43,498 nt of DNA from Planctomycetota bacterium (GTDB lineage Bacteria > Planctomycetota > B15-G4 > JADJEK01): assembly GCA_016213895.1 (NCBI GenBank), contig JACQZJ010000142.1, forward strand, positions 1-43,498, written 5' to 3'. Shown piece after piece: positions 4,792 to 43,498 of the stretch. The position numbers were made by a program, and so were the translations under genes. The notes under the pieces were generated by a model. It did no database searches and was not told the DNA's origin. It saw only the letters and a list, made by a program, of their open reading frames with translations. Positions within the stretch are counted from its first letter, which is position 1; every line of letters starts with the position of its first letter.

Positions 4792-4914
4792 TCAGGCCCT
4801 CCTGCTTCGGAGCTTCGTCTGCTCGCAGTACGGGCCGCTCCCCGAGATCTCGTCGTGGGTGCAGCGGGTGTCCTTCTTCTCGGCCTTCGTGCCGTTGCCC
4901 TTCTTGCCTGCCAT
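4792..4914 (-). CDS. 40-residue Lys-rich micro-ORF with three Cys
   Basis: It encodes a 40-residue peptide beginning MAGKKGNGTKAEKKDTRC and containing CTHDEISGSGPYC. Start and stop are clear, and GAGG lies 6 bases before the ATG. It begins 14 bases after the stop of the AlbA_2 gene on the same strand, so it is probably its operon partner. No family is recognised; the basic N-terminus suggests nucleic-acid or protein binding. Reality as a protein is supported by position and ribosome-binding site only. Confidence 0.45.
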   Translation of the reverse strand: MAGKKGNGTKAEKKDTRCTHDEISGSGPYCEQTKLRSRRA

Positions 4915-4928
4915 GCGTGCCTCGCTCC

Positions 4929-25710: not shown

Positions 25711-25713
25711 GCG

Positions 25714-26935: not shown

Positions 26936-26998
26936 CGCCGCGGCCGCGTGAGCCCGACCCTCCCCGTCGAGGGTCTCCCGCCGACGTGCGCGCGACCA
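26934..26998 (+). other. lptD-like sequence scrap at a junction
   Basis: Positions 26934-26958 match lptD 20701-20725 exactly over 25 bases, and similarity continues to about 26998. The translation [17 protein letters not shown] resembles Lpt[18 protein letters not shown]. The scrap sits between the GH172 pseudogene and the transposase tail. Confidence 0.5.
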
Positions 26999-27032
26999 GC
27001 GGACGTACGCCGACGGCCCGAACGCGCACCGG

Positions 27033-27380
27033 CGCAGGACGCATGGCAGGCGATCGACCTCGTGCTCGACCACCTCGCACGTCACGGAGACAACCTCTGG
27101 GGCCACGCCATCGCGCTGCCTCCCGAGGCCGGGGGCGGCGTGCGCCTCGTCGACCGCACCAACAACGCTCAGGAAGACTCGTTCCGCCACCTCAAGCACG
27201 GCGAGCGCCGACGCAGCGGCCGCAAGGTCCCGACGCAGGACCTCGAGCGCCTGCCGCCCCAGGCCGCCCTCGCCGCCAACCTCGATCGCCCCGACTACGT
27301 CGCCGTCCTCTGCGGCTCCCTCGACGCCCTGCCCGTCGCTTTCGCCCAGCTCGACGCCACACAACGCCAGACGCCAGCCT
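27033..27380 (+). pseudogene. transposase C-terminal remnant
   Basis: The frame carries AIDLVLDHLARHGDNLWGHA, then RTNNAQEDSFRHLKHGERRR and LPPQAALAANLDRPDYVAVL, which match the end of a transposase-type protein as I recall it from high-GC genomes: the NN...E-x-FF/SF...K stretch carries the last catalytic acidic residue. No start codon, N-terminal part or terminal inverted repeats were found. The reading frame continues beyond 27380 but loses family character. Confidence 0.55.
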
Positions 27381-27795
27381 TCGCCAAGACGACGCCGCTA
27401 TGCACCGCCGGATCAACCACGCCGCTCGCAGCCGAGCGCCCAAGACAACGCGCGTGGTCCGATCAGGACCCCGCACCGACGGCGCCAGCGGGCACGGATG
27501 TCCGCGTAGCGCACTGCCGCGACGCGCGTTGCCCCTTGAGGATCTCCAGTCGCTCGCCGGGCGCCTGCGTCGCCTGGATGGTGTCGGAGATTCTCCTCGC
27601 GGCGTCCCAGTCCATCGCCATCTCCATGAACATCGGAAGGCCAGGGGATCGAATGCTCGGCGGGATGCCGTCCTCGCGCGGGCCGCAGGCGCCCCGCCCG
27701 CCCCGTGCTCTCCGCCTGCCTATCGACCAGGGCCTCCGGCCGCGCGCCGGACGCTCGGCCTCCGCGGCCGAGTCCCCTCTTGCTGCAAACGGCAG
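27381..27795. other. stretch without a recognised gene
   Basis: Nothing firm. The minus strand has a 56-residue frame at 27463-27633 (MFMEMAMDWDAARRISDTIQ...) with a plausible helical start, but no ribosome-binding site or family was recognised. A 7-base-stem hairpin lies at 27754-27772, 24 bases after the DUF2283 stop, without a U-tract. Confidence 0.3.
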
Positions 27796-28041
27796 TCAGG
27801 TGCCCGGTTTCTTCGCAACCCGAAGGTCCGCGGCCACCGGAAGCTCGAAGAGATCGTTCCGCAGCAGTCTGGTCGAGAAGAAGAGCACCTCGAGATTCTC
27901 GACTTCGTCCGTGCCGGGGTTGATCCGCGCGATGACTTCGTCCCCGAGTTCCTCCGACTGCTGCGCCGCATAGGGTGGACACTTGTCGATGTGCAGAATG
28001 TCGGCCTCGCGGTCGTACCTGAACGTCAGTCGCGTTTCCAT
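27796..28041 (-). CDS. DUF2283 protein, possible antitoxin
   Basis: An 81-residue DUF2283 protein: TRLTFRYDREADILHIDKC, then SEELGDEVIARINPGTDEVE and NLEVLFFSTRLLRNDLFELP. The family is a small beta-rich fold with YDxEADxLxI at its start. It overlaps the upstream RNase-like gene by 16 bases. Such pairs are commonly found together, and the arrangement suggests toxin followed by antitoxin. The start is ATG 28041; longer upstream frames do not look coding. Confidence 0.8.
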   Translation of the reverse strand: METRLTFRYDREADILHIDKCPPYAAQQSEELGDEVIARINPGTDEVENLEVLFFSTRLLRNDLFELPVAADLRVAKKPGT

Positions 28042-28352
28042 TCGATCGCTCCTTCGGCCAGCGTTCGCGCCAGATAGGCAGTGATGATCCAGTGACGCTG
28101 GGCTGGGTCCAGCTCGCTGACCACGACGACAACAGCGTGTCTCCCCAGGCGAGCGTCCGCGTACCACCGCGAAAGCAGCCTCGCGGCCCCGAAGCGAGAG
28201 CTCCTGCGGACCTGATCGGGCTGGGCGAGGGTCTCCCCGATCCGTCCTCGGTGCTCAGGGAGAAGGTCGGGATGTCGCTCCGCGATGTGTCGCTCCCGCT
28301 CCTCCGTCAGCTCGACCTCGCCGTTGAGGTAAGGGCATGGGAAGTGGCTCAT
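28026..28352 (-). CDS. BECR-fold RNase-like protein, possible toxin
   Basis: A 108-residue protein with GEVELTEERERHIAERHPDL, then ETLAQPDQVRRS, a central RLLSRWYADARL strand, and HWIITAYLARTL. The HI..RHP start and the IITAY strand near the end fit the phage-barnase/EndoU/colicin-E5 (PBECR) nuclease-like families, with His and Arg as likely catalytic residues. ATG 28352 has GGAGGAG 5 bases upstream and is preferred over ATG 28370. It pairs with DUF2283. A toxin role is inferred, not shown. A decayed integron integrase lies just upstream on the same strand. Confidence 0.6.
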   Translation of the reverse strand: MSHFPCPYLNGEVELTEERERHIAERHPDLLPEHRGRIGETLAQPDQVRRSSRFGAARLLSRWYADARLGRHAVVVVVSELDPAQRHWIITAYLARTLAEGAIEWKRD

Positions 28353-28423
28353 CGCGCTCCTCCACCCCACGTTCTAGCCTATCCGAGCGCCTGGCAGGTA
28401 CTGCCGGGTCCGTCTGATTCCGC

Positions 28424-29022: not shown

Positions 29023-29742
29023 ATGGACGCTCAGCAAGAGGATCACGACCGCCTGCCCGAGGAACCGGACGGCATCCAGGTCGTGCTCAACTCTCTCAAG
29101 CGCCTGGAGAAGGCCCCACGCATCGATCCGCGCCGCGCCGCGGACCCGGACCACCTCGCGGACGTCCTCCTCGATCACGCCGACCACTTCGACGGCACCC
29201 GTTTCCTCTACTTGCTCATGGCATTGCAGGTCGAGCGCTTTGACGAGCTGGCCAGGGTAATGTGCGAGCGCGAGTACCTGATGCTTGACGCGCGCGGCCT
29301 CGCCGAGGAAGCGATCGTGAGCGTGTACACTGGCTACGTCGACGGCACGCGGCAGGTGCCGTTCCGCGCCTGGGCCAGGCAGATCATCCGCCGCGTCACG
29401 AGGCGCGCGTGCAATGACCCGGAGCTCGCCCCGTTCCACCGAGACGGCGGCAGCCCCGCCGAGCAAGTGGTCACGGCGATCCTCGCCGACAAGGTCAACA
29501 AGCTCGACTTCGACTCGCGCCGCCTCATTTGGCTCGCCTGGGTCGAGAAGCTGCCGCTCTCGGACGTCGCGCGCGAGACCGGAGTGCCGTTCGAGCGCGC
29601 GGAGTGGCTGCTTGCTTCGGTGGCCGAGTCCGCCCACGCCGCCGTCAAGGACCTGCTCCTCGGCGGCCGCCCGCACGGCGAGAAGAAGGACCGGAACGAT
29701 CCCTGGAACCTCGCGGGACTGGAGGGCGCCGATGGACGCTGA
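29023..29742 (+). CDS. ECF-like sigma factor, locus 1
   Basis: A 239-residue protein. Residues about 60-135 carry a sigma-region-2-like helix set (RFLYLLMALQVERFDELARV, then VPFRAWARQIIRRVTRR), and residues about 170-215 a region-4-like helix-turn-helix (LIWLAWVEKLPLSDVARETG, then PFERAEWLLASV). The N-terminal 55 residues (LPEEPDGIQVVLNSLKRL) are an extra segment not found in standard ECF factors; a polar tail follows region 4. It should direct RNA polymerase to a small regulon, probably including its own operon. It overlaps the partner gene by 11 bases, exactly as in the second copy at 38555, which has the same length. Confidence 0.75.
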   Translation: MDAQQEDHDRLPEEPDGIQVVLNSLKRLEKAPRIDPRRAADPDHLADVLLDHADHFDGTRFLYLLMALQVERFDELARVMCEREYLMLDARGLAEEAIVSVYTGYVDGTRQVPFRAWARQIIRRVTRRACNDPELAPFHRDGGSPAEQVVTAILADKVNKLDFDSRRLIWLAWVEKLPLSDVARETGVPFERAEWLLASVAESAHAAVKDLLLGGRPHGEKKDRNDPWNLAGLEGADGR

Positions 29743-30751
29743 ACCAGTCCCCGTGGCGATGAAGGACTTGCTCCGGCGGCTTCCCGAGCTGCTCGCAGGG
29801 TCCGAGCCGGTCCTGAGTCGGCCGAAGGTCCGCGAGTACTTGAAGCAGGATCCCGCCGCCGGCGCTCTCATCACGGTCATCGCCGAGCTGGCCCGGGCCA
29901 TGAGCGAAGGCTCGGAGCTCGTCCGCGCTCTGCCCCGAGCCACGGTGCGCTCTCTCGCCAAGCCCATCGAGACGGCCCGCCGCTACTTCAAGAAGGAGCT
30001 GGTGGACCTGCTCTTCGACATCGGGCTGGCGGAGTTCGAGCAGGTCACCAACGGCATGGGGATGTCCTTCCCTTCGCCGAACACCGGCAGGGCTCTCTTC
30101 CCTCGCGGCGCGTCCCGCAAGCGCGTGGTCCTCAGCGTGGCCGACGCACTCGAGATCGATCTTGAGTCTTGCCTGTCCGCAAGCGGTTTCTCCTCCTCTG
30201 ACCTCGGCGGCTTCTTTTCGTCCGAGCAGGCCTCCCTGTCCAGAGTGACACGACTCATGGGTGCCTGCGATACTCTTATCCCCGGGCTCGATGGCGTACA
30301 GTTCTTCACCGTTCTCACGCCCGAGTTGGTAGGACAGCCTGGTCGTTCGTCTTCGTGGCTGGACTACGTTCGTTCGGCTTCGACTCCGTACTGCAAGCAT
30401 GCCGGTCTCTTGCAGGCAGCGCACTCGTACTCAGCGGACGGGGAATACCAGATGGCCCGGCGGCTCGATGAGTTGGCCCTGCGCCATCATCCCACGTCGG
30501 TGATGGCCCCCTACCTGAGCGCTCTGCACGCCGCGCTTGCTGGAGACGTGTCGGTCCTGCAGAGCAGGCTAGCGGACTGGCTGCATTCGCTCGGAGCCCT
30601 GCCTGGCGCCGAGAGTCTGCCCGCGCGGCTATTCCACGAGGATCGGGCCCTGTGGAGCAAAGTCCGCGTGCGCGACCGGACCGCTTTCGATCGAGCCGTC
30701 TCGCACCTGCCAGAGGACCTCGCCGGCAGGATTCAGGAGACTCTGGCATGA
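29732..30751 (+). CDS. sigma-partner protein, locus 1, unknown family
   Basis: A 339-residue soluble protein. The N-terminus MDAEPVPVAMKDLLRRLPEL and a LSRPKVREYLKQDP stretch are shared with the second copy. The middle is helical; the C-terminal third has a TPR-like look (HAGLLQAAHSYSADGEYQMA, then LRHHPTSVMAPYLSALHAAL). There is no membrane segment, signal peptide, or zinc-binding anti-sigma (ZAS) motif. Its fixed position directly after the sigma gene, with an 11-base overlap, suggests an anti-sigma or co-regulator function. It overlaps the next ORF by 4 bases. No named family is recognised. Confidence 0.65.
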   Translation: MDAEPVPVAMKDLLRRLPELLAGSEPVLSRPKVREYLKQDPAAGALITVIAELARAMSEGSELVRALPRATVRSLAKPIETARRYFKKELVDLLFDIGLAEFEQVTNGMGMSFPSPNTGRALFPRGASRKRVVLSVADALEIDLESCLSASGFSSSDLGGFFSSEQASLSRVTRLMGACDTLIPGLDGVQFFTVLTPELVGQPGRSSSWLDYVRSASTPYCKHAGLLQAAHSYSADGEYQMARRLDELALRHHPTSVMAPYLSALHAALAGDVSVLQSRLADWLHSLGALPGAESLPARLFHEDRALWSKVRVRDRTAFDRAVSHLPEDLAGRIQETLA

Positions 30752-30942
30752 AGAAGTTCCTCCTCCTCGTGGTTCTGGCCGTGCTGCTGCCGGACGCGCA
30801 AGGTCTCGTCAGGCCAAGAACGTCCAACGCGCCCCGGCCTGGCCTCTCGATCGGAGGCTCCGGAGACGTTCCTGGTAGTCCTGGTGGCGGCGCGAGAAGA
30901 CCCGGGGTTTCCAGCTCTCCCGTTCCGTCATTTCGACCGTGA
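30748..30942 (+). CDS. small secreted peptide, locus 1
   Basis: A 64-residue ORF with a clear signal peptide (MKKFLLLVVLAVLLPDAQG) and a short Gly/Pro/Ser-rich remainder. The ATG overlaps the partner stop (ATGA), and its own TGA overlaps the GTG start of the giant gene. Its counterpart in locus 2 keeps the signal peptide but almost nothing else, so coupling of translation or a leader role is as likely as a mature function. Confidence 0.55.
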   Translation: MKKFLLLVVLAVLLPDAQGLVRPRTSNAPRPGLSIGGSGDVPGSPGGGARRPGVSSSPVPSFRP

Positions 30943-33900
30943 TGTCGCCGCCGAGGCTCGATGAGCCGCCGAGAGCGGCGCGAAGCAGCCATCTCCTCGC
31001 CCTCGGCGCTGCGCTCGTCGCGCTTTCGGTGGCGGCGGCGCTCCTCGTCCACCGCGGCAGCGATCGACCGCCCGATGGTCAGCAGTCTGCCGCGGCACAA
31101 CTCCCCGTCGAGGCGGCCTCCGGGGATCGCGGGCCGGCGACAGAGAGCGATTCCGGTTCTCTCGCTCCGGCCTCCACGCCTGTCCGCGACGCCGCGGAAG
31201 ACCGGTGCCGCCTGCTCTTCCTGCTCGAGGGCAAGCCCGCTCCAGCGACAGAGATCTACATCCTGCCCTGGACCGAAGACATCCGCTCCATGGCGTCCTC
31301 GGCCACGGGCCTGCCGAAGACCCTCATTCTTCGTGAATCCACCCGGGCCGTGGCCGACGACTCCGGCGCGGCGCTGATCGCCTCGCCATCCCCACCCTTC
31401 TTCCTCGCGGCACGCGCGCCCGGCTCCGCGCCCTACGGCGTCGTCTGTGAGTCGGCCGAGGCATTTCGGTCGCTCGACCTTCCTCCCGAGCAGCACCTGG
31501 TCGGACGCGTCGTGTCCGCGGTCGAGGGCACGCTTTCGGGCGTCACCGTCCTCGCCTACCGCGCCTTCCAGGACGAGTACTACTACGACCACGTCTGCGC
31601 GGACGATCTGCGCACCGCGGGCATGTTCTTCGAGAGCCGCACCGCGCCCGCCTCGGATGGCGCCTTCGACCTCTCGGGGCTGCCGGCGTCTCGCGTGTAT
31701 GTCGCCGCCTACGGCCCGGGAACCGCGTCCGAGCGCCGCGCGGACTTCATCCTCCCCACCCAGGAGCCCTGCGAGCTGGTCCTGCGCACGACCTTGACCC
31801 TCGAAGGACACGTCCTCGAGGAAGGCACGGGCCAGCCCATCGAGGGCGCCCGTGTGTCCGCCTTCCTGCGCTCGGGCCAGCTCGGCTTTCGCGACTGCAC
31901 CGTCACCACCACGCTCGCAGGCGGCTCTTTCCAGCTTCTCGGCGTCCCGATCGCCCACGACGATCTCGGGCTCAGCGTCTTCCGCGAGGGCTACGCCGCC
32001 GTCACCCAGCGCATCGCCACCACGGAGCTCCGCGACCAGAAGGACCTCGTCTTCCTCCTGCAGCGTTCGTGCCGCGTGTCCGGCACCATCCGCTCGCGGA
32101 ACGGCCCGCCCCTTCCCAACGCCTACATCCAGGTCCACGAGCCCGCGACCCTGGACATGGTCCGCTACACGCAGGCCGATGCTGCCGGTGAGTTCGTCCT
32201 CGACTTCATCGCTTCGGGCCGCGCCTATACACTCGTCGGCTCCGCCAAGAAGCACTATTACCTCTTCCTGAAGGACACGGACCTCTCGGCGCGCGATCCC
32301 CTCGAGCTCGTGCTCGAGCCTCAGCCGACGCTACGCGGTCACGTCACCACCGAGGACTATCCCATTCGCAACGGCACGGCCCGGATCATCGAGGAGGACG
32401 ATGCGGGCAACCTCATGTTCGAAGCCAACGCGGAGATTGACCCGGATAGCGGCGACTTCCACTTCCCCGCACTTGCCGCCGGCCAATACCTTTTGGACGT
32501 TGTCGCCGACGGGCTGGCGCCCGCCCATGTTCCACAGGTGCCCGTGCTCGACGGCGCCGAACCGAACGTCATCGATGTGGCCATGACCCGGGGAGCCGTG
32601 CTGCGCGGCACGGTCCGCGCCAGGGACTCCGGGCAGCCTGTGCCCGGCGCCGAGGTGACGTTCGCCGATCGCTCCTGGCAGGGGAGCATCTGGGGCGGCC
32701 TGCCGGGCGCCGCGTGCGCCACCACGGACGGAACCGGCGCCTTCCTTCTCGAGCACGCGCCCGCGGGCTCGACCACCGTCCTCCTCGTCGACCACGAGGG
32801 CTACGCCCCGGCCAACGCCGAGATCAAGGTATCGCCCGGCCAGCCCTCCGCCCGGCTCGACGTGCTGCTCGACAGGGCCTGCTGCGTCACGGCCACGATC
32901 AGGAACGAAGAGGACCGGCGCTTTCTCGCCCTCGATGGCTATGTCCACACGGCGGATCGAAGGATACATAGCGCCATGACGACGTCTGGGGAGCTGCGCT
33001 TCGACCGCCTCCCTCCAGGCGAGGTCACGGTCCAGGCCATCATCGCTGCCGGCGTTCGCGATGACATCGACGGCTGCTCCTTCCACAAGTACCTCCGCTT
33101 GCGCCCCGGTGAGACACAGACCGTGGCTTTCACCCTGGCCGGTGGCGCACGCATCTCAGGCAGGGTTACCGGTCCCGCTCTGAGCGATTCCTTCCGCAGG
33201 TTGGCAGTGAGCGCGGCCTCCGCGGACGACCCGGTACGTTTCGATCTCTACACCGTGACTGATCACTTCTACCGCTACGTCTTGGTGGGAGTCCCCCCAG
33301 GGAGACACGTCGTCACCGTCCAGACCGAGGACTTCGGCGCTGGCTTCACCGTGTCGCGCACCGTCGATGTCCTGCCGGGCGCGGACATCCAGCTCGACTT
33401 CCACCTCCCCGTTTCGGGTCTCCGGGGCAAGGTGACGGACAGCGGCGGTACTCCCCTCGTCGGCGCCGTCATCTACGTCCGCGCCTGGGATGCCGCGCGC
33501 GACGCCTTCGACGATTCGCCGCACGGACAGATCCAGCAGACGGCGGTGTCCGACGAGTGCGGTTCCTACTTCGTCACGGGCGTGAGCCCTGGTGCGTACG
33601 CCTTCTCGGCCAAGGCCGCGGGTTGCGCCTGGGCCGAGGGCCTGTTCGAGATCCCCGACGAGGAGACGGTGGTCGAGCAGGACATCATCCTGGAGAAGGA
33701 CGGCCGCCTGGAAGTGCTCGTCTCGGATCGCGCCGGCACGCTGGTGACGGGCGCGACATGCACCGTCCAGCGCGACGGCGTGCACTACGCCACGCCGCTC
33801 ACCGCGCTCGCCGAGTCCCTGCCTGACAGGCTCGTGTTCGCGGGCGCGGCCACGGCCACCTACCGCGTGCGCGTGCGAGCCGACGGCTTCTTCCCCGCCG

Positions 33901-34244
33901 ACGAGACCGTGTCCTGCGCCTCGGGCACGACCGCGACCCTGCGAATCGCGCTGCGGCGGCCCGGCTCGCTCGCCATCGACCTCGTTGGACCCGACGGCGC
34001 GGCCGCGACGCATGCACCGGTCGAGGTCCAGGACCTCGAGAGCGGGGCGTTCGCCGGGGACTGGATCGTAGCGGGCCTGGTGACCAGCTCGACGTCATCT
34101 TCCACGACGGACGCCCACGGCGAGCTGCGCCTCGACGGCCTTCCCGAAGGCCGCTTCCGCGTGCGCGCCCTGGGCGTCGCGAAGGACGTCGACGTCCTGC
34201 CCGGCGCCCTGACCGGGCCGATCCGGCTGCAGCAGATCCCGTGA
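30939..34244 (+). CDS. giant membrane-anchored carboxypeptidase-regulatory-like repeat protein, locus 1
   Basis: An 1101-residue protein. After a short basic N-terminus comes one membrane helix (about residues 20-41, LLALGAALVALSVAAALLV), then an Ala/Pro-rich stalk, then roughly nine to ten beta-sandwich repeats of the carboxypeptidase-regulatory/CNA-B-like type. Repeat signatures include LSGVTVLAYRAF, LEGHVLEEGTGQPIEGARVS, VLRGTVRARDSGQPVPGAEV, LRGKVTDSGGTPLVGAV and closing strands such as GRLEVLVSDRAGTLV. There is no sortase motif and no catalytic residues. It should be a cell-envelope stalk or sensor. GTG 30939 or ATG 30942 starts it. It is convergent with the GH172 gene, 7 bases apart. 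Confidence 0.72.
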   Translation: MMSPPRLDEPPRAARSSHLLALGAALVALSVAAALLVHRGSDRPPDGQQSAAAQLPVEAASGDRGPATESDSGSLAPASTPVRDAAEDRCRLLFLLEGKPAPATEIYILPWTEDIRSMASSATGLPKTLILRESTRAVADDSGAALIASPSPPFFLAARAPGSAPYGVVCESAEAFRSLDLPPEQHLVGRVVSAVEGTLSGVTVLAYRAFQDEYYYDHVCADDLRTAGMFFESRTAPASDGAFDLSGLPASRVYVAAYGPGTASERRADFILPTQEPCELVLRTTLTLEGHVLEEGTGQPIEGARVSAFLRSGQLGFRDCTVTTTLAGGSFQLLGVPIAHDDLGLSVFREGYAAVTQRIATTELRDQKDLVFLLQRSCRVSGTIRSRNGPPLPNAYIQVHEPATLDMVRYTQADAAGEFVLDFIASGRAYTLVGSAKKHYYLFLKDTDLSARDPLELVLEPQPTLRGHVTTEDYPIRNGTARIIEEDDAGNLMFEANAEIDPDSGDFHFPALAAGQYLLDVVADGLAPAHVPQVPVLDGAEPNVIDVAMTRGAVLRGTVRARDSGQPVPGAEVTFADRSWQGSIWGGLPGAACATTDGTGAFLLEHAPAGSTTVLLVDHEGYAPANAEIKVSPGQPSARLDVLLDRACCVTATIRNEEDRRFLALDGYVHTADRRIHSAMTTSGELRFDRLPPGEVTVQAIIAAGVRDDIDGCSFHKYLRLRPGETQTVAFTLAGGARISGRVTGPALSDSFRRLAVSAASADDPVRFDLYTVTDHFYRYVLVGVPPGRHVVTVQTEDFGAGFTVSRTVDVLPGADIQLDFHLPVSGLRGKVTDSGGTPLVGAVIYVRAWDAARDAFDDSPHGQIQQTAVSDECGSYFVTGVSPGAYAFSAKAAGCAWAEGLFEIPDEETVVEQDIILEKDGRLEVLVSDRAGTLVTGATCTVQRDGVHYATPLTALAESLPDRLVFAGAATATYRVRVRADGFFPADETVSCASGTTATLRIALRRPGSLAIDLVGPDGAAATHAPVEVQDLESGAFAGDWIVAGLVTSSTSSSTTDAHGELRLDGLPEGRFRVRALGVAKDVDVLPGALTGPIRLQQIP

Positions 34245-34251: not shown

Positions 34252-36774
34252 CTACTTCTCCTCCGCCTCCTCGGGCATGAGCAGCACGTAGTCCACGCCG
34301 AAGTAGTAGTAGGGCGGCTCGGACTTGTCGTTGCGGCCCACGGCCTGGAGGCTGAGCAGCGCCGCGTCTCCGAGGAAGAACACGCCGAGGTCGACTTGCG
34401 GCGCGAGGTCCGAGGCCCGCTCAGCCTCGTTGAAGAGGTCCAGCTCCTCGATGACCCGGCGGCCGTCGAGCGAGATCGCGATCGTGCCATAGTCCCAGCT
34501 CTTCGTCAGACCGAGCTTCACGCGATAGCTCCCGGTCGCGGGCGTTGACACGCGGAGCTCGATCAGGTCCCCGGGCTTCGTCGCCTTGACCCAGAGGTGC
34601 GCGCCGCCGCTCCAGCGGTCGGCCGGCATGCCCTGCCGCTCGTGCTCGAGTCCCGGGCTCGCGCTCACCACGAGCAGCCCCTCGGCTTCGACCGCGCCCG
34701 GGACGATTCGCGGCGGGCCGCCGGTCTTCCGGAGCTGCACGGTCTCGAAGAGCGCCTGGCCGGGCACCACGATCTCGAGCTCGAGGTGGTGCTTCCCCGC
34801 CCGAAGCGGCACAGGATCGAACCCGAAGCCGAGGAGGCGCGGGGAGCCCGGGGTGCGCAGCACCACCACCTGCTCGCCCTCGCGCTGCAGGACCTGCCCG
34901 CCGAGCCGCGCCGAGAGGATCGGCCCGTCGTGCCGGAGAAGCGCGGTGATGTAGAGCGCGTACAGGCCCTCCTCGGGCGCCGCCACCTCGAGCGCCAGGC
35001 GCTCGGCCGCGCCCGCGCCGCTCCACGAGAGCAGCGGTCCGCCGCGCGAAAGCGCGCTCTCCTCGGCGCCCACGTCGCCGGCGCTCGCCTGGGGCGCGAG
35101 CTCGGTCGCGGGCCGGCGCGTGGCCTCGCCCTCCTCGCTCCACACGCCTTCCCCCCAGTTCGGGATCGCGGGCACGAGCAGCTCCCTCGGCTGCAGGCGC
35201 CGGTGGTCGTCGATCGCCCCGGGCCGCGCGTACCACCACGCGATCCGCCCATAGGACAGCGGCTCGACCGGCACGTGGCTCCACAGCTCGAGGAAGAGCG
35301 CGGCCGAGCGCTCGAACGGGATGTCATCCAGGATGAAGAAGCGGTGATTGCTGACGTAGCCGCAGTTCCCCGGCCCGGAGTCGAGCGGCTGCCCGCAGTA
35401 GGGATGGTCGAACAGGTCGATGCGGCTCCAGGAGTAGTTGTAGAAGTCCTCCGAGCCCGTGCCGAAGGTGGACGGCGCGCTCTCGCCGTCGATCAGGATC
35501 TTCTCGTCGCCCTCGCCCCACCAGTTACCGGAGCGATCGGGCGCGGGCAGGGGGTTCATCAGCATGCACGCCGCGCCCACCAGGCGGCCCTGTCCGATCG
35601 CCACGAGATACGGCAGATCGCAGGGCGCGGCGCCGGCCTGCGCGCGCAGCTCGTGGTCCACGCGCCAGCGCGCGCGGAAGTAGAGGCTCTGCTCGTCGAA
35701 GGGGCGCGGCCGCGTCGCGATCTCGGCGCGGCCCTGAACCGTCGCGCCGCTCAGGTTCTCGAGGCGCACGCGCGCCTCCTTCTGGAACGGCATGGGAAAG
35801 CGGCAGATCATCGTGCCGTCGCGCCGCACCGTCATGGGCACGGCCTCGAGGGGGTTCAGGCCGACGCCCGAGCCGAAGAAGTCGCCGGCCGGCGCCTCGA
35901 CCTGCGGCTCCTCAGCGCCGTCGTAGTTAATGGTAAGCAGCGTGCCGCGCAGCGCGGCGGCGCGGTCGGGTCCGGACAGGTTGAGCGCGAACCAGCAGAT
36001 CTCGCCCGCCGCCCCGCCGCCGGCCGTCCTCTCGGCCGTTTCCCCGGGCGCAAGCGCGATCTCCCAGACTTCCGCTCCTTCGGCCGCCGCGTCCTCTGCC
36101 GCCGCGCGCTCCGCGAGCCAGGCCCGGACCTGCTCGGAGAGCCCTGGCGCTGCGAAGCTCTCGACGCGCGCGCCCTTCTCGTAGCAGCGCACCTGCAGGT
36201 GGTAGAAGTGCACCTCGTTCAGGCTCCCCTCCCAGGTCACGCGCAGGCCTTCCGCGAAGGGGATGGGCAGGTAGTCGGCGTCCTGCTGCACGAAGGGATC
36301 GCGGCCGAGCCACGCGCTCGCCGCGGACATGGCGCCGAAGTGCTCGGAGCGCCGCGCCAGGAACGCGTAGGCGTCCCCCTCGTAGAGCGGCTCACTTGCA
36401 CCGTCGAGGAAGACGCGCAGGATCCCGCCCATGCCGGCTGACCAGCCGCGCACGATCGCGCCCGGCCCGTCCACCTCGGCCACGAGGTAGAGGCCGATGC
36501 CCGACTCGTCCGGCGCGCGCAGCACGCCGAGGAACGCCGGCAGAGGCTCCCCGCCGAAGCCGTCGGCGTTCGCGAACCAGGACGGCGCGTCGCGGTTCGT
36601 GGAGCGGCGGTCGAAGCTCGAGAACTGCACCGTGCGATAGGACGGCGCGGGCAGGCGGCCGAGGCGCTCGAGATCGGCCATCTCGTCAAGGAGCGTGGCC
36701 GTGGTGACCGGGGCGGCCTCGCCGCCGCTCTGGCCGAGGGCGAGGCTAAGAAGCAGGACTGCGGCGTTCAGCAT
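34252..36774 (-). CDS. secreted GH172 (DUF2961)-type glycosidase
   Basis: An 840-residue exported protein with a signal peptide (LNAAVLLLSLALGQSGGEA). The core has the DUF2961 signatures SYRTVQFSSFDRRS, then LYFRARWRVDHEL and FGTGSEDFYNYSWSRIDL with conserved Glu and Asp. Known GH172 members are fructofuranosidases and arabinofuranosidases; the glycan here is not determined. Residues about 570-820 form an added carbohydrate-binding-like beta region, the part also present as a pseudogene at 26270. ATG has GGAAGGAA upstream. It follows the Nmad3 gene by 27 bases on the same strand. Confidence 0.82.
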   Translation of the reverse strand: MLNAAVLLLSLALGQSGGEAAPVTTATLLDEMADLERLGRLPAPSYRTVQFSSFDRRSTNRDAPSWFANADGFGGEPLPAFLGVLRAPDESGIGLYLVAEVDGPGAIVRGWSAGMGGILRVFLDGASEPLYEGDAYAFLARRSEHFGAMSAASAWLGRDPFVQQDADYLPIPFAEGLRVTWEGSLNEVHFYHLQVRCYEKGARVESFAAPGLSEQVRAWLAERAAAEDAAAEGAEVWEIALAPGETAERTAGGGAAGEICWFALNLSGPDRAAALRGTLLTINYDGAEEPQVEAPAGDFFGSGVGLNPLEAVPMTVRRDGTMICRFPMPFQKEARVRLENLSGATVQGRAEIATRPRPFDEQSLYFRARWRVDHELRAQAGAAPCDLPYLVAIGQGRLVGAACMLMNPLPAPDRSGNWWGEGDEKILIDGESAPSTFGTGSEDFYNYSWSRIDLFDHPYCGQPLDSGPGNCGYVSNHRFFILDDIPFERSAALFLELWSHVPVEPLSYGRIAWWYARPGAIDDHRRLQPRELLVPAIPNWGEGVWSEEGEATRRPATELAPQASAGDVGAEESALSRGGPLLSWSGAGAAERLALEVAAPEEGLYALYITALLRHDGPILSARLGGQVLQREGEQVVVLRTPGSPRLLGFGFDPVPLRAGKHHLELEIVVPGQALFETVQLRKTGGPPRIVPGAVEAEGLLVVSASPGLEHERQGMPADRWSGGAHLWVKATKPGDLIELRVSTPATGSYRVKLGLTKSWDYGTIAISLDGRRVIEELDLFNEAERASDLAPQVDLGVFFLGDAALLSLQAVGRNDKSEPPYYYFGVDYVLLMPEEAEEK

Positions 36775-36801
36775 GGCGGACGTTCCTTCCAGTCCGCTCT
36801 T

Positions 36802-37701
36802 CTACCACGTGGCGCGCGTTCGATGAACGGGCTCGAGGGGCGTTGCCGCCGCGCCGCACGCGCCCGCGGCGAACAGCTCGGCCAGCCACGGCCGCGCCTC
36901 GGGGTAGTGATCGACGTCAAGCACGAACTCCTGCCCGCGGGCCACGGAGCGGAGGAGCAGGCGCCCGTCCTGCATTGCCCAGCGCTCGGAATCCTCGTGA
37001 TACCCGAGCGCGGGACGGCCGCGGCGAGGAGCGAACCACGTCGGAACTTCCCAGACGCTGCGGGTCTTGCCCGCCGCGCTGAGGCGCAGTCGCTCGTGGT
37101 AGCGGGCGAACGCACCGCCACCCGGCACGATGCACGGCATTCCTTGCAGCTGCATCTGCTTCGACGCCACGTACAGGGTGTTGCGGTCCCTGCCCGGCTG
37201 CCGCACATGCGGATGCGCCGCGGCCCAGCGCGGCGTGCGCGCGCTCGGAATGGCGAGAACGCGGCCCACGCGCAGCCAGCCGAAGATCACATGCTTGCCC
37301 GCAGCGCCTGGCACGAAGCGAAGTCTCCCTGCGCGCTCCTCGACCTCCCGGAACCAGCCGAAGAAGAGAAAGAGGTCTCCCTTGCCGACTCGCGCGCGGT
37401 CCAGCACGCCCTGCGCGGCGCCTGCCTGGCCGAATGCTGGCCTCCAGCGCAGTGCGCGAGGAAGCGCCTCGGCCCGAAGATCTGGATCGAGGTGCGCGCC
37501 GCAGCGCGAGCGGACCTTCCCCTTCGTCAGCTCCTCGACGATGCGGCCCACGGGCCGTCCGCTCCATGCGATCTCGGCGTAGCTCGTTTCGCTGCCCCAC
37601 TCAGGGATGGGGAGCGACAGCATCGAGCCGTCCGGGAAAACGGGGCTCGGCGTGCCGCCGGCGGAGGAATCGAAGCCCTTTCGGCTGAGGATCAGGCGCA
37701 C
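36802..37701 (-). CDS. Nmad3 (nucleotide-modification-associated domain 3) protein
   Basis: A 299-residue protein starting at GTG 37701, which has GGAGG exactly 5 bases before it; a longer ATG start at 37734 is less likely. LILSRKGFDSSAGGTPSPVF, then MLSLPIPEWGSETSYAEIAW, and CGAHLDPDLR are signatures of the Nmad3 family. The last part contains WEVPTWFAP and a C-terminal W...L helix. Nmad domains were predicted from genome context to act in DNA or nucleotide base modification; the reaction is not established. It overlaps Nmad2 by 10 bases. Confidence 0.78.
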   Translation of the reverse strand: MRLILSRKGFDSSAGGTPSPVFPDGSMLSLPIPEWGSETSYAEIAWSGRPVGRIVEELTKGKVRSRCGAHLDPDLRAEALPRALRWRPAFGQAGAAQGVLDRARVGKGDLFLFFGWFREVEERAGRLRFVPGAAGKHVIFGWLRVGRVLAIPSARTPRWAAAHPHVRQPGRDRNTLYVASKQMQLQGMPCIVPGGGAFARYHERLRLSAAGKTRSVWEVPTWFAPRRGRPALGYHEDSERWAMQDGRLLLRSVARGQEFVLDVDHYPEARPWLAELFAAGACGAAATPLEPVHRTRATW

Positions 37702-38348
37702 GAGGGCCTCCAGGAGTCGTCCTCCGCAGACCATCCGGCCGGCGGACCCAGGACTCCGCGTTCCTTGCGGGCGAAGAAGTCGTGAACTGCCGCGATCTGC
37801 TCGGGCGAGAAGCGGCAGCGGTGCCCCCGGCCGGTTCGCAGGAACTGAAGGCGTCTCGGCAGCACCGGGCCCTGGCCTCCGAAGTAGACGAAGTCACGGG
37901 ACACCAGCACGGCATTGGCGCCCGTGTCGCGGCGCCTGGCGCTCTGGCTTTCCTGATCTCTCTTGTGATCCCAGTGGGCCGATCGGAGCTGAACGAAGCC
38001 GCCGGCGCCGTCCGGCCGGTAGATGTTGTCGCCGCGCCGCCGCCTCGCGAGCGGCGACTCCCATTCCGGGCGCTTCGCTCGGAACCGCGGATCGGCCCAG
38101 TACTGCTCGAACGAGAGCCGCTCGTCCACTCGCATCACGTAGACGATCCGTTCGCATCGCCGGGAAAGGCCGATGATCACGTCTCCGGGCGCCGCGGCGC
38201 CGCGGATGCGCGGCTTGCAGCACGCCAGGGTGCACCAGCCGTGGAAGGGGTTGGGAGCGAAGCCCCCGTCTTGGACGACCACGTAGGAGAAGACGCGAGA
38301 GGGATCCCTCGTCGTTCTTCCGGGGCGGCTCACTCTCTTCCAGGACAT
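37692..38348 (-). CDS. Nmad2 (nucleotide-modification-associated domain 2) protein
   Basis: A 218-residue protein with VVVQDGGFAPNPFHGWCTLA followed by CCKPRIR, GDVIIGLSRRCERIVYVMRV, LSFEQYWADPRFRAKRPEW and RRRGDNIYRP, all typical of the Nmad2 family. A later FVYFGGQGPVLP segment and a C-terminal helical part complete it. The family is linked to nucleotide modification by gene context only. It heads a minus-strand run with Nmad3 and the GH172 gene and lies between the two sigma loci. Confidence 0.78.
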   Translation of the reverse strand: MSWKRVSRPGRTTRDPSRVFSYVVVQDGGFAPNPFHGWCTLACCKPRIRGAAAPGDVIIGLSRRCERIVYVMRVDERLSFEQYWADPRFRAKRPEWESPLARRRRGDNIYRPDGAGGFVQLRSAHWDHKRDQESQSARRRDTGANAVLVSRDFVYFGGQGPVLPRRLQFLRTGRGHRCRFSPEQIAAVHDFFARKERGVLGPPAGWSAEDDSWRPSCA

Positions 38349-38458
38349 CCCTGACTACCCGCTCGGCATCATGCCGCCTGACCCTACGGGATGCGCCTCC
38401 CTACGCCAAGGCCGATGGGGGCGGCGCGCACTTGCGGCGACCACCCGCACGGAACCCC

Positions 38459-38490
38459 TTGACAGGCGCCCGCGACCCTGTTTCGATCTT
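38459..38490 (+). promoter_or_regulatory. promoter-like block of sigma locus 2
   Basis: TTGACA (38459-38464) preceded by GGAACCCC, with TTCGAT 17 bases later and GATCTT after 20. It matches the block at 28927-28958 in spacing and in distance (96 bases) to the start codon. Confidence 0.55.
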
Positions 38491-38501
38491 GCTACACGGA
38501 G

Positions 38502-38517
38502 GCCCCGCCTTCGGGGC
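38502..38517 (+). other. 5'-leader hairpin of sigma locus 2
   Basis: GCCCCG (38502-38507) pairs with CGGGGC (38512-38517) around a CCTT loop. It lies at nearly the same distance from the start codon as the hairpin in locus 1, although the sequence differs, suggesting conserved structure. Confidence 0.45.
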
Positions 38518-38554
38518 GGCGCCGGACCCTGCGGTGGAGGATAGACAGCCTGGG

Positions 38555-39274
38555 ATGAGCGCGGACCGCGACGACCGCGACCGCTTGCCGGAGGAGCCGG
38601 ACGGCATCCAGGTCGTGCTCAACGCTTTGCGGCGCCTGAAGAAGCCGCCGCGGATCGCCCCCCGCTACGCCGCTGACCCCGACCACATCGCGGATGTGCT
38701 CCTCGACCGCGCTGACCAATTCGACGGCACGCGCTTCCTCTACCTTCTCACGGCGCTCCAGCTTGGGCGCTTCGATGAACTGGCCCGGGAAATCTGCGAG
38801 CGCAAGTACCTGATGCTCGACACCGAGGGCCTGGCTGAGGAGGCCATCGTGGCCATCTACACCGGCTACGTGGATGGCTCGCGCCAGGTGCCATTTCGAT
38901 CCTGGGCCAGGCAGATCATGCACTGGGTCGCGAAGCGCGCCTGCCACGATCCGGACCTGGCGGCCTTCCGTTCGAACGGCGGCAGCCGCGCCGAGCAGTT
39001 GGTGATGTCGATCCTCGCCGAAAAGGTCAACCAACTCGACCTCGACACGCGACGCCTGGTCTGGCTCGCGTGGATGGAGAAGCTGACCCTGCCTCAGATC
39101 GCGCGCGAGACGGCCGTGCCGTTCGAGCGCGTCGAGTGGATCCTCGCTTCGGTGATGGAATCCGCGCAGCGCGAGGTCAAGGACCTGCTGCTCGGCAGGA
39201 TCCCGTTCGGCGAGGAAGGCGGTCCCGGCGAGCGCGAGGACAGCGCGGGGCTGGAGGGCGCCGATGAACTCTGA
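38555..39274 (+). CDS. ECF-like sigma factor, locus 2
   Basis: A 239-residue paralogue of the protein at 29023, co-linear from end to end. It keeps the N-terminal LPEEPDGIQVVLNALRRL segment, the region-2-like helices (FDELAREICERKYLMLDTEG; VPFRSWARQIMHWVAKR) and the region-4-like helix-turn-helix (LVWLAWMEKLTLPQIARETA; PFERVEWILASV). Differences concentrate in the linker and C-terminal tail. It may act on the same or a diverged promoter; cross-talk is possible because the promoter-like blocks are alike. It overlaps its partner gene by 11 bases. Confidence 0.75.
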   Translation: MSADRDDRDRLPEEPDGIQVVLNALRRLKKPPRIAPRYAADPDHIADVLLDRADQFDGTRFLYLLTALQLGRFDELAREICERKYLMLDTEGLAEEAIVAIYTGYVDGSRQVPFRSWARQIMHWVAKRACHDPDLAAFRSNGGSRAEQLVMSILAEKVNQLDLDTRRLVWLAWMEKLTLPQIARETAVPFERVEWILASVMESAQREVKDLLLGRIPFGEEGGPGEREDSAGLEGADEL

Positions 39275-40280
39275 GCCCGTGCCCGTGCCCGTGAGGGACC
39301 TGCTCTGGCGCCTGCCCGAGCTGCTCGAGGGACCCGAGCCGGTCTTGAGCCGGCCCAAGGTGCGCGAGTACCTGAAGAGCGATCCGGATGCTGCCATGGC
39401 CATCGCCGTGGTTGCCGAGATGTCTCGCACCATGAGAGAAGCTTCGGCGCTCCTCCGCTCCCGCCCTCCCGCCGGCCGCCGCTCCCCTGCCCTGGCCATC
39501 GAGACGGCCCGCCGCTGCTTCAGGAAGCAGCTCGTGGATCTTCTCTTCGAGCTCGGCATCGTGGAGTTCTGGCGAGCGACCCAGCAGGCGGGAGTGCCGT
39601 TCTTCTCTGACGCTCTGCGGGATGTGCCTGCAACGAAGCCCCCCGCCGAAGACGTCCTGCCGCGCATCGCCGATGTGCTCGGCATGAACCTGGCCTCCAT
39701 CTGGCCAGCGCAAGAAGCCGGGGGTCCTCTGCCCGAAGTCCTCCGCGCGGGAGAGTCACCATCCCTGGCCCACGCTGAGCGCCTGATGAACGCATGCGAC
39801 GCGCTCATCCCGGACCTCCCCGGCGTACGCTTCTTCCGCCTCCTCATCCCGCAGCTCCAGGGAAGGCCCGTCCTGCCGTCTGCCTGGCTCGACTTCGTTC
39901 GCACCGCGGATGGGGCGTTCGACAAGCACGCCGCGCTCATCCAGGCGGGGCACCTTCTGTTCCTCGCGGGTGACCTACGCGCGTCCGTGCAGGCGAATGA
40001 ACTCGCTCTGCGGCACTGCCCGAGTTCCCCCTTCCCGCCCTATTTCATTGCGCTGTATGGTGCCCTCGCGGGAGAGGAGGCAGCGCTCGCCGATCGCTTG
40101 TGTCGCTGGTCGGAGTGCATCCGTGCTTCCAGCTCTCTGCTGTTGGCCGCGGTGACGCAGGTGCGTCACGACCGTTTGCTCTGGAAGAGGCTCGCTGTCC
40201 GCTCGGCGAAACCGGCCTCTCATGCCCTGTCGCGCTTGCCTCCGGCAATCGCGAACGCCCTCGACGAGGTCCTCCGATGA
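39264..40280 (+). CDS. sigma-partner protein, locus 2, unknown family
   Basis: A 338-residue paralogue of the partner at 29732. MNSEPVPVPVRDLLWRLPEL, GPEPVLSRPKVREYLKSDP and the helical middle (IETARRCFRKQLVDLLFELG) align closely. The C-terminal third again looks TPR-like (AALIQAGHLLFLAGDLRASV; LRHCPSSPFPPYFIALYGAL). No transmembrane segment or zinc motif is present. It starts inside the sigma gene and overlaps the small ORF by 3-4 bases. Confidence 0.65.
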   Translation: MNSEPVPVPVRDLLWRLPELLEGPEPVLSRPKVREYLKSDPDAAMAIAVVAEMSRTMREASALLRSRPPAGRRSPALAIETARRCFRKQLVDLLFELGIVEFWRATQQAGVPFFSDALRDVPATKPPAEDVLPRIADVLGMNLASIWPAQEAGGPLPEVLRAGESPSLAHAERLMNACDALIPDLPGVRFFRLLIPQLQGRPVLPSAWLDFVRTADGAFDKHAALIQAGHLLFLAGDLRASVQANELALRHCPSSPFPPYFIALYGALAGEEAALADRLCRWSECIRASSSLLLAAVTQVRHDRLLWKRLAVRSAKPASHALSRLPPAIANALDEVLR

Positions 40281-40360
40281 TGGCGCGCCGCTTCTTCTTC
40301 CTCGTCCTGCTGCTGCTCTTCCTCGCTCCGGCGCCGGCTCAGTCCGAGGGACTCCGGTAG
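40277..40360 (+). CDS. micro-ORF, signal peptide only, locus 2
   Basis: A 27-residue ORF (MMARRFFFLVLLLLFLAPAP, then AQSEGLR and TAG). It corresponds to the small secreted peptide of locus 1 but stops right after the signal peptide; its downstream sequence retains a weak likeness to the longer version. The ATG overlaps the partner stop. It may be a leader peptide, or a truncated gene. Confidence 0.45.
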   Translation: MMARRFFFLVLLLLFLAPAPAQSEGLR

Positions 40361-40415
40361 GCGGGGGCGCCCGAACAAACGCCCCGCTGAAGAACCCCGC
40401 CCCCTGAACCCACCG

Positions 40416-43400
40416 TGACTCCGCTGAACTCGCTGCGCAAGCTGGGCGTCACGGGGCTTCTGCTGGCCGCGCTGATCCTCGTCGGTTTCTTGGCCGTAAG
40501 GCCGTTCATCTCCGGGGACAGGCGGCCCGAGGAACCGGCGCCTTCCGTTGCGCCGCGGGTTGAACCCAGCGTAGCGCTCGCTCCAGCCGCTGACGAATCG
40601 GATGATCAGGCGAGCGCGGCGCCCGCGCGCGCGGCTGCCGCCACCTCCCGCACCTTCCGCTTCCTCTTGAACGACCAGCCCGCCGCCGACACGGAGTTCG
40701 CCCTCCTTCCCTGGGACGACGAGATCGCCCTCGCCGCGCGCTCGCACATCGGCCTGCCCAAGAGCCTCATCGCTCGCCTGGCCCAGCGCTTCGTCACCGG
40801 CGCCTCGGGCGAGGCCTCGGTGGACGTTCCGTCCGTACCCTTCTTCCTGGCCGCTCGCGCGCCCGGATCCGCGCCCTTTGGCCAGCGCTTCGACCGCCTT
40901 CTCGAGAGCGTCTCGCTTGCGCTACCCCCGGAACAGCGCCTGCACGGCATCGTCGTCAACAGCATCGACGAGCCCGTCAGCGGCGTGACCGTGCTTGCGC
41001 ACCGCGCCTTCCAGGATGAGTACGTCTACGACCGCATCCGCGACGACGATCAGCGCACCGCGGGCATGTTCTTCGAGAGCATCGCCCCGGCGCTCGCCGG
41101 CGGCTCGTTCGACGTGGGTGGGCTCCCGGCCGCCCGCGTCTTCGTCATCGCCCTCGCTGGCCAGAAGACCTCCGAGCGCCGCGTCGACTTCGTGCTGCCC
41201 TCCGAGGAGGTGTGCGAGCTGATGCTGCGCGACGCCATCACCTGGAGGGGGCTCGTGGCAGACGAGGCCACGGGGCAGCCGCTCGAAGGAGCACAAGTCT
41301 CGTCGTTCGAGCGCAAGGGCGACCTCAGCATGTTCCAGCACGTCGTGACCACGACCGATGCTCTCGGCCGCTTCGAGCTCGCTGGCGTGCCCGCCGCGGC
41401 AGACCTGTTCGGCTTGTGCGTCTCTCGCAGGGACTACGCCACCTACATGCGGCGCCTCGAACCGACCGTCGTCGAGCGCAGCGAGGACCTGTTCGTGCCC
41501 CTGAAGAGGGCCTGCTCCGTTGCAGGCGTGGTGCGCTCGCTGAAGGGAGAGCCTCTCGCCGGCGTGTGGGTGCAGGTGCATCAGGATGGCACCTTCGACC
41601 TCGTGGACTACACGCAGACCGACGCCAGCGGCCGCTTCGCCATCGAGTTCGTCGCCCCTGGCGAGCGCTACGCGCTGGTCGGCTCGGGCCAGGGCTACCA
41701 CATCGCCATTCAGGAGGGAGTCGAGATCTGCTCCGTGTTCGAACACGAGATCCTGCTCGACCCCCTGCCTTCGCTCCGCGGGCGCGTGCTCGTCGAGGAC
41801 TACCCGGTTGAGCGCGGCATCGCGCGGGTCTTCCAAGAGGACCGTGCGGGCAATCGTCTCCTCCAAGCCACGGCCGACGTCGCTCCGGCGACCGGCGAAT
41901 TTGAGTTCCCCTTCCTGGACGCAGGCCGCTACGTGCTCGATGTCTCCGCCTCCTGCTATGCGCCCCTTCGCGTCGCCGATGTGCCGGTCCAGGCCGAGAC
42001 GGATATAAACTCCATCGAGGTGACCTTACGGCGCGGCGCAACCCTGCGCGGCACGGTGTTCGCGCGCGGCACTCGCCAGGTGATCATCGGCGCCAAGGTG
42101 ACGCTTGGCGATGAGTTGTTGGACGGCGACATCGTCGGCCCCCTTCCCGGGGCGCCCGCCGCCGTGACGGACGGCAACGGCGAGTATCTCCTCGAGAACG
42201 TACCGGTGGGCACAGCCAGGAAGCTCTTCGTAGACCACCCCGACTACAGCGTCGGCACGGCCGTGCTGTTCCTGGAGGAGGGCTCGCTCTCTGCCCGCCT
42301 GGACGTCGAGCTGACGCGTGCGTGCCTCGTCACGGCAACGGTCACGGATGAACTGGGCCGCCGGTTCATGTCCATCGACGGCACTGCCTACACTTCCCAG
42401 GGAGAGCAGCGCGACATCTGGGACTCGTCGGGCATCCTCCGCTTCGATCGACTGCCGCCGGGGAATACCGCCATACAGGCTGGTGTCTCGGCGGGAACGC
42501 GCGCGGATCTCCGTGACCGGCGCATGGCCCAGCGGTTCGAGCTGGCCGAGGGGGAAACGCGCGCGCTCACCTTCTCCCTGGCCGGCGGCGGCCGCGTCCA
42601 CGGCCGCCTCGTCGGACCAGCCGCAAGCCCCCTCTTTCGCCGGCTCTGGGTCCTGTCCTCGCTGGCGGAACACCCCGACCTCGTCGACCAGGCCACGTCT
42701 CCCGACCATCACGGGTACTACGTCCTCTCGGGAATCGCCCCGGGCCGGCGCGTCGTGTACGTGGAACCAGCCGATGCAGGCACAGGTTTCCGCGTGTCCA
42801 GGACAGTGGACCTGCTGCCAGGAAGCGACATCAAGCTGGACTTCCCGCTGCCCCTTTCCGGCATGCAGGGCACGGTGTCCGCGCGCGGCGGCGGTCCTGT
42901 GGTCGGCGCGCGAATTCAGATGCTGCCGCGCGACCCGGCGGCGAGCGCGCCCGCCGAGACCCCCTACCCCTTCCGCCTCGATACGCGCTCGAACGAGTCG
43001 GGCGCGTACCAGATCGTCGGCGCCCAGCCCGGATCCTACGCCTTCTCCGTCAAGGCCGCGGGCTTCGCCTGCGAGGAGGGGATGATCCAGATCGCCGACG
43101 AGGAGGCCGTTGTCCAGCAGAACATCGTCCTCGAGAAGGAGGCGCGCCTCGAGGTCGTGCTCTCGGACCGGGCCGGCTCGCCCGTCCTTTCCACGGCGTG
43201 CACCGTGGAGCGCGCCGACGGCGCCTCGCTCCAGCCCCTGCGCGCGCTCCCGGAACTCCTCCCGGACAGACTCGTCTTCGAGGGCGCCGCTACCGCCCTC
43301 TATCGCGCGCGGGTGCGGGCCGAGGGCTTCTTCCCCGCCGAGCAGACCGCCTCCTGCACATCCGGTACGACCACCACCCTGCCGATCACCCTGCGCCAGC

Positions 43401-43498
43401 CGGGCTCGCTCGTCATCCGCCTCGTCTCGCCCGCGGCCCTGCCCGCGGCGCAGGTCGCGCTCGACGTCCTCGATCTCGAGACCGGCGCGCGCGCCGCG
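40416..43498 (+). CDS. giant membrane-anchored carboxypeptidase-regulatory-like repeat protein, locus 2 (partial)
   Basis: The frame is open from GTG 40416 to the window end, more than 1020 codons with no stop. After a short N-terminus there is one membrane helix (GVTGLLLAALILVGFLAV, about residues 11-28), an acidic Ala/Pro-rich stalk, then repeats aligned one for one with the protein at 30939: PFFLAARAPGSAPFG, VSGVTVLAHRAFQDEYVYD, LVADEATGQPLEGAQVSSF, LRGRVLVEDYPVERG, TLRGTVFARGTRQVIIGAKV, and LEVVLSDRAGSPV. Repeat cores are conserved, while loops and the stalk have diverged. It is separated from the micro-ORF by 55 bases, unlike the overlap in locus 1. The C-terminus lies outside the window. 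Confidence 0.7.

Follow-up and report, generated by a model that had tools for sequence, protein, structure and literature searches.

A 43,498-nucleotide stretch of a Planctomycetota bacterium (GenBank assembly GCA_016213895.1, contig JACQZJ010000142.1, positions 1 to 43,498, hereafter the window) was found to contain two overlapping genes of the nucleotide modification associated families Nmad2 and Nmad3, followed by a glycoside hydrolase gene of family GH172. The Nmad2-Nmad3 pair is a genuine recurrent two-gene module across several phyla, without GH172, and Nmad2 was found to adjoin a TIR gene on most of the plasmids that carry it. A defence role is inferred from particular partners, and the chances are judged about even that Nmad2 serves a defence module as an exchangeable sensor of modification and that Nmad3 fills the place of its partner. 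The three genes are as follows.

37692-38348, minus strand: Nmad2 gene, 218 amino acids, PF18753 E 1.8e-58, predicted PUA-like (YTH/EVE/ASCH-like) fold
36802-37734 from the first ATG (310 amino acids), minus strand: Nmad3 gene, PF18754 E 8.4e-79, predicted EVE-like fold
34252-36774, minus strand: GH172/DUF2961 glycoside hydrolase gene, 840 amino acids, PF11175 E 1.2e-53, a neighbour very probably outside the module

The sequence-only reading of the window had described overlapping Nmad genes followed after 27 bases by a glycosidase, and the genes were found as described: all three on the minus strand, with a 27-base spacer between the Nmad3 stop codon and the GH172 start. The family scores were far above the Pfam gathering cut-offs, with 197.8 bits against 26.1 for Nmad2 in PF18753, 265.1 bits against 27 for Nmad3 in PF18754, and 182.5 bits against 27 for the DUF2961 domain of the GH172 gene. 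The true start of Nmad3 is likely the GTG at about 37701 (299 amino acids), because the N-terminus aligns there with those of relatives, and the overlap with Nmad2 would therefore be about 10 rather than 43 bases.

When genome contigs were scanned with an alignment of Nmad3, at least 460 relatives were confirmed, and the locus counts given here refer to the best 80, ranked by Nmad3 similarity. Nmad2 was found to adjoin Nmad3 in 17 of the 80 loci, upstream in 15 and downstream in 2, the match of one (L097) being weak, and the titles of the pair loci included Nocardioidaceae, Deltaproteobacteria, Nitrospirales, Phycisphaerales, Spirochaetae and Gammaproteobacteria. Among 392 genomes of the phylum, Nmad3 was found in 14 (13 over the cut-off), Nmad2 in 13 and both in 5, against 0.46 expected (Fisher p 2.9e-5, kinship ignored). 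The two genes were adjacent in 4 of the 392, namely the window's genome (G000), a genome of the same genus (G001, locus L025), G022 and G159. This survey of neighbours upheld the recurrence of the pair and not the membership of GH172. Two further loci beyond the 17 (L055 and L065) contained an Nmad2 fragment about 3 kb from Nmad3, with AbiE-type genes between; these were AbiEii and a partner gene, lying in L055 within 2334-6555, where AbiEii was confirmed by the profile scan. A Burkholderia stagnalis plasmid (L024 4949-9037) was found to contain Nmad3 with a truncated Nmad2 behind it; upstream of both lay MotA/MotB/FliG-like genes (by eye).

Nmad genes had been said to occur usually in phage or defence contexts, and the phage part was not borne out: neither Nmad was found by tblastn in any of 50,697 phage records, and a pattern scan gave 11 viral contigs with Nmad3 and 4 with Nmad2. 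The candidate explanation of the Nmads as phage genes, or as a phage DNA hypermodification operon, was rejected on the empty phage records and on the bacterial chromosomal genes that surround the window pair.

The partners of Nmad2 were found to differ between loci. Nmad2 was found by tblastn in 18 plasmid records, and a TIR gene was present upstream in 14 of them, three as weak or partial matches (L174, L175 and L180). The TIR gene ended within about 15 bases of the Nmad2 start or overlapped it in 13 of these 14, and the partial match of L180 ended about 360 bases before Nmad2; the adjacency in L183 was taken from the annotation table, the printed Nmad2 match coordinates there belonging to a second match. 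A TIR_2 domain was found on the gene preceding Nmad2 in all 8 plasmid records tested, with L173 and one of the two L179 copies under the cut-off, and the TIR protein was weakly like the solved structure 8wcf (E 8.6e-4). No TIR was found by Nmad2 in plasmid records L178, L187, L188 and L189, and Nmad3 was found in the examined flanks of none of the 18. TIR-Nmad2 is a recurrent module. Nmad2 was seen immediately behind a TIR gene in plasmids L172, L173, L176, L177, L179 and L181-L186, and also in L127, L128, L030 and L031.

Outside the plasmids, TIR was found upstream in 2 of the 4 viral contigs found via Nmad2, and the 13 Nmad2 genomes of the phylum were found to contain adjacent Nmad3 in 4, TIR in 2 and an Mrr nuclease in 1. 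In the last (G230, L171 9640-10580), the Mrr gene lay directly upstream of Nmad2, followed downstream by a type I methyltransferase gene; the Mrr-like protein gave no PDB sequence match, and its identity was then confirmed by Mrr_cat (E 8.6e-28). No examined locus contained TIR and Nmad3 together, the loci having been drawn via one or the other gene, so that exclusivity is unproven. The partners suggest that Nmad3 and TIR fill one slot beside Nmad2.

The pair itself was also found near defence genes. In G159 (L168 5026-10481) an AAA_5 ATPase gene and a McrBC component (PF10117, E 5.1e-37) were present shortly before Nmad2-Nmad3, and further neighbours were a helicase like DruE (L036), an ATPase like AbiLi/AriA with a RloB-like fragment (G022, L026), AbiEii (L035 and L055), Cas1/Cas2-like genes (L044, by eye; the pooled scan gave two Cas2 matches) and genes resembling toxin-antitoxin systems (L042, L045 and L047, by eye and pooled scan). 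The neighbour sets comprised 137 of 139 listed neighbours (set A5, one protein of more than 1900 amino acids having been left out earlier) and 137 of 144 (set A6). Ordinary genes, including those of ABC transporters and GroEL, were found to adjoin the pair as well. No nuclease, the expected partner in type IV restriction, was recognised in the window pair or its direct neighbours, whereas G230 and G159 each had a nuclease or McrBC partner at the locus.

The AlphaFold2 models had a predicted local distance difference test score (pLDDT) of 86.8 for Nmad2 and 93.4 for Nmad3. For Nmad2, the Foldseek list was led by ASCH, EVE and YTH proteins, and all 50 VIA rows contained YTH, the best being YTHDC1 (Z 7.0, 132 residues, 3.8 Å). 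For Nmad3, the Foldseek list was mixed, and the best VIA match was the EVE protein MJECL36 (Z 7.4, 137 residues, 4.1 Å), followed by PH1033 and then by the N-terminal domain of Thermococcus gammatolerans McrB, THYN1 and VcaM4I; its first 24 VIA rows were nearly all EVE, YTH or ASCH domains, with two DrmAB rows. According to the tool, a VIA Z under 8 may reflect a common arrangement only, and the reader-like folding was weighed because it was consistent over both proteins and not from the Z values alone. The models are suggestive of a resemblance of both Nmads to EVE/YTH/ASCH (PUA-like) modified-base readers. PUA-like domains include the readers EVE, YTH and SRA, according to the accessible part of PMC7641849. 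The search of PDB sequences gave no solved relative of note for Nmad2 or Nmad3. The invariant polar residues of the Nmad3 alignment were S6, R7, K8, D11, H70, D72, D109, H137, H163 and H165, and its invariant motifs were SRKxxD, HxDP and HPH.

The earlier description of the Nmads as modifying enzymes found little echo in the profiles. The window Nmad3 with those of 56 of the 91 fetched loci (57 sequences), and the window Nmad2 with 19 of its 24 matches (20 sequences), were found to match essentially their own Pfam families, with no recognised catalytic domain. Both proteins could still be writers, making or helping to make a modified nucleotide in host DNA or RNA, as the Pfam family names imply; the invariant His, Asp, Arg and Lys of Nmad3 look like an active site, and nucleoside triphosphate pyrophosphohydrolase and uracil-DNA glycosylase genes were found following or near Nmad2 at several plasmid loci, where thymidylate synthase genes were also neighbours. 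Against this stand the lack of any cofactor-binding or known transferase domain in the 77 sequences scanned, the reader-like predicted folds, with modified-base binders among the best structural neighbours, and the absence of recognised modification genes beside the window pair, and writing is judged unlikely.

In the sensor reading, the PUA-like pocket of Nmad2 would take up a modified base in invading DNA, RNA or nucleotides, as EVE, YTH and SRA domains do, and this uptake would switch on the co-encoded partner, which would be a TIR NADase on plasmids, Nmad3 at the window and, in one relative, the Mrr nuclease. PUA-like domains also include hydrolases, for example ASCH and EOLA proteins. Nmad3, with its EVE-like fold and its SRKxxD, HxDP and HPH motifs, may be a second reader, giving two-site recognition, or an effector, in which case it would be a hydrolase built on the fold of ASCH and EOLA proteins. 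The wider proposal, that a modular immune family shares Nmad2 as its sensor, coupled to alternative effectors (TIR NADase, Mrr nuclease or Nmad3), and that Nmad3 is a new PUA-like effector or co-reader replacing TIR, is put forward tentatively, as something possible rather than probable.

Several results weigh against the sensor reading. The fold scores were modest (Foldseek E 0.012 at best for Nmad2 and 0.11 for Nmad3, with Z below 8). None of the 57 Nmad3 and 20 Nmad2 sequences matched the Pfam EVE, YTH or ASCH families at E 10 or better, and the Nmads were therefore not filed as members; the Nmad2 and Nmad3 profiles did not match each other (2.3% probability). Of the best 80 Nmad3 loci, 63 were without an adjacent Nmad2, many of them in housekeeping surroundings, and such locus fractions are not frequencies, the genome loci having been drawn via Nmad3 and ranked by similarity. 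No TIR, Mrr or Nmad3 was recognised beside Nmad2 in 6 of the 13 Nmad2 genomes of the phylum. The Nmad2 frame of G001 (L025 866-1480) was open, with its second half swapped for unrelated sequence. By PADLOC, the pair loci were not richer in defence than the Nmad3-only loci (164 vs 229 families), and the defence context is therefore given by example, with no enrichment claimed; of the assertion that Nmads occur in defence contexts, the examples of both families near defence genes stood and an enrichment was not seen.

Instead of defence, the pair might serve DNA or RNA repair or housekeeping. Nmad3 was found alone in many Halomonas, Marinobacter and Microbulbifer loci, and in Halomonas its neighbours are conserved, part of them looking by eye like repair genes. 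The TIR and Mrr partners of Nmad2, its plasmid loci and a patchy spread (14 of 392 phylum genomes for Nmad3 and 13 of 392 for Nmad2, with neither found in G002 or G003, two genomes of the same family that are 88% and 84% complete) speak for the other side, and a repair or housekeeping unit appears rather unlikely. Nmad3 was seen directly downstream of an AlkA-type DNA glycosylase-like gene (by eye) in L082, L083, L087, L098, L103 and L110.

The GH172 protein was found to match 4kq7 and 7v1v among PDB sequences. The catalytic set of Bifidobacterium dentium alphaFFase1 is W267, E270, E291, D292 and W298, according to the accessible part of PMC8605356, and its counterparts in the window protein were W418, E421, E442, D443 and W449, with the two Glu again 21 residues apart; the acid/base and nucleophile Glu and the Trp/Asp/Trp of the -1 subsite, as read from the sequence, place the protein in GH172. 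It had been called secreted, for which the sole basis was a hydrophobic N-terminus judged by eye.

The three genes had been presented as one combination. GH172 was found near Nmad3 in 1 of the best 80 Nmad3 loci, the contig of the same-genus G001, and was found in none of 8 further stretches of the phylum; G001, the only close relative having the trio, was found to contain it separated, with a two-gene antitoxin-like pair between Nmad3 and GH172, which is the outcome that the sequence-only reading had named as refuting the trio. A functional operon, in which the glycosidase would act with the Nmads on a sugar-modified base or a glycan, would fit the 27-base spacing, the common strand, the retained catalytic residues and the identical order of these three genes in G001. 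The interposed genes and the empty further stretches count against it, as do a spacing that resembles a deletion scar, an N-terminus that would suggest export, away from DNA, and the location of the GH172 paralogues of G000 and G001 on other contigs, and such an operon is considered very improbable. GH172 is, with high confidence, not part of the Nmad2-Nmad3 module; probably it adjoins the pair by chance, a deletion having moved the genes together. The features that bear on this history are as follows.

36775-36850, minus strand: putative deletion scar, Nmad3 end and 27-base spacer, from the window compared with G001 (L025 about 2280-2400 and 3000-3120)
26272-26962, minus strand: GH172 3′ remnant adjoining the left sigma unit, 569 bases aligned with the full gene at 88% identity, matches in separate frames
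27796-28370, minus strand: antitoxin-like pair, DUF2283 protein 27796-28041 (PF10049 E 8.2e-6) and partner 28026-28346 without family match
25504-26106, minus strand: Phd/YefM antitoxin and PIN toxin genes beside the GH172 remnant, PF02604 E 1.5e-8 and PF01850 E 3.1e-11
29023-34244, plus strand: left sigma unit with a sigma-like gene, a gene without family and a CarboxypepD_reg protein (E 1e-63), flanking repeat
38432-43498, plus strand: right sigma unit, truncated by the contig end, 64-75% identity to the left unit, flanking repeat

The sigma units were found to be direct repeats of 64-75% identity at an offset of about 9.4-9.5 kb, and the sigma-like gene of the left unit matched Sigma70_r2/r4 at E 0.02-0.035, under the Pfam cut-off. 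The left flank of the right unit consisted of Nmad2, Nmad3 and GH172, and that of the left unit of the antitoxin-like pair, a stretch without family match and the GH172 remnant, followed by the PIN and Phd genes. The frame 26888-27973, between the remnant and the antitoxin-like pair, was transposase-like by eye and gave no Pfam match. The trio had been taken as inserted between twin loci, which was not confirmed: the sigma repeats are real, but a GH172 remnant and the antitoxin-like pair flank the left twin as well.

One contig of G001 was found to contain, in order, a sigma gene of the right-unit type at the contig end, Nmad2, Nmad3, the DUF2283 pair, GH172 and Phd-like, zinc ribbon, copper ATPase and LptD-like genes, the last four named by eye. 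The flank of G001 beyond GH172 recurred in the window beside the GH172 remnant, and the antitoxin-like pair of the window had 73.5% nucleotide identity to L025 2471-3046, which in G001 lies between Nmad3 and GH172. The window's Nmad3 stop codon and the spacer upstream of GH172 were homologous to the part of G001 that separates its DUF2283 gene from GH172, and the Nmad3 of G001 ended about 0.7 kb earlier than the homologous position of the window's stop. On these alignments the 27-base spacing resembles a scar left by the loss of about 0.7 kb. Since the antitoxin-like pair is near GH172 at the left unit of the window too, the event was more likely a deletion in the window than an insertion in G001.

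Over 675 shared columns, the GH172 identities were 86.4% between remnant and full copy, 86.5% between full copy and G001 and 83.6% between remnant and G001; over 372 columns, the sigma identities were 83.3% between right unit and G001, 75.3% between left and right and 72.0% between left and G001, and on these values the sigma units seem to have been duplicated before the two species separated. The ratios of nonsynonymous to synonymous substitution rates (dN/dS) between the window species and G001 were 0.45 for Nmad3, 0.37 for the N-terminal half of Nmad2 and 0.28 for GH172. The sigma family was multicopy and dispersed in G000, with further matches on contigs C44, C105, C112, C124, C154, C85 and C91, and G001 contained one strong sigma-unit match only, at the contig end. 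Tests for a degraded Nmad copy at the left unit gave no signal at the DNA level (p 0.25-0.65), and one of six frame tests gave 61 against a shuffle maximum of 59 (200 shuffles); no such copy is claimed. The stretch at 28.4-28.9 kb was compared with the Nmads only. At the window locus the pair adjoins the multicopy sigma family, and a unit of GH172 and small antitoxin-like genes may have been duplicated, after which the copies would have lost different parts.

Excision or amplification of the trio by recombination between the sigma copies, as had been envisaged, fared poorly: the longest identical run between the sigma units was 28 bases (none of 30 or more), and the GH172 copies (88%), with a run of 37 bases, are the better repeats. 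Homologous excision of the trio is unlikely, and recombination between the GH172 copies would delete the left sigma unit and not the trio, leaving a G001-like order.

No use of Nmad2, Nmad3, PF18753 or PF18754 in the present sense was found in the searched literature, and a text search found no mention of Nmad in PMC12839542 or PMC12458937. Should Nmad2 prove to be a reader whose effectors can be exchanged, it would offer a new approach to the detection of hypermodified phage DNA by bacteria; Nmad3 is widespread, as its relatives show, and both families are named for nucleotide modification.

Among known systems, alphaFFase1 of Bifidobacterium dentium shares the DUF2961 domain and the catalytic residues with the window GH172, as far as the accessible part of PMC8605356 goes, whereas the window protein, of 840 amino acids, contains a long C-terminal part and alphaFFase1 has no Nmad link there. 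In the accessible part of the DefensePredictor paper (PMC13092281), the nucleotide modification associated domain is highlighted among predicted, unvalidated defence domains, and the abbreviation NMAD is also explained in the legend of a figure of validated systems; its NMAD-containing candidate defence system likewise has this domain, the Nmad family not being stated in that part of the text. Like TIR anti-phage systems such as Thoeris, the TIR-Nmad2 loci have a small TIR gene with a partner gene behind it and lie on plasmids that carry further defence genes, whereas the window itself is without TIR and the TIR resembles solved ones weakly. The type IV readers with EVE, YTH or SRA domains (for example VcaM4I and Thermococcus gammatolerans McrB) may share the PUA-like fold predicted for the Nmads, and McrBC and Mrr genes neighbour the Nmads of relatives; the Nmads differ from them in having no Pfam EVE/YTH match and no fused nuclease or GTPase, and in the presence of two different reader-like proteins together.

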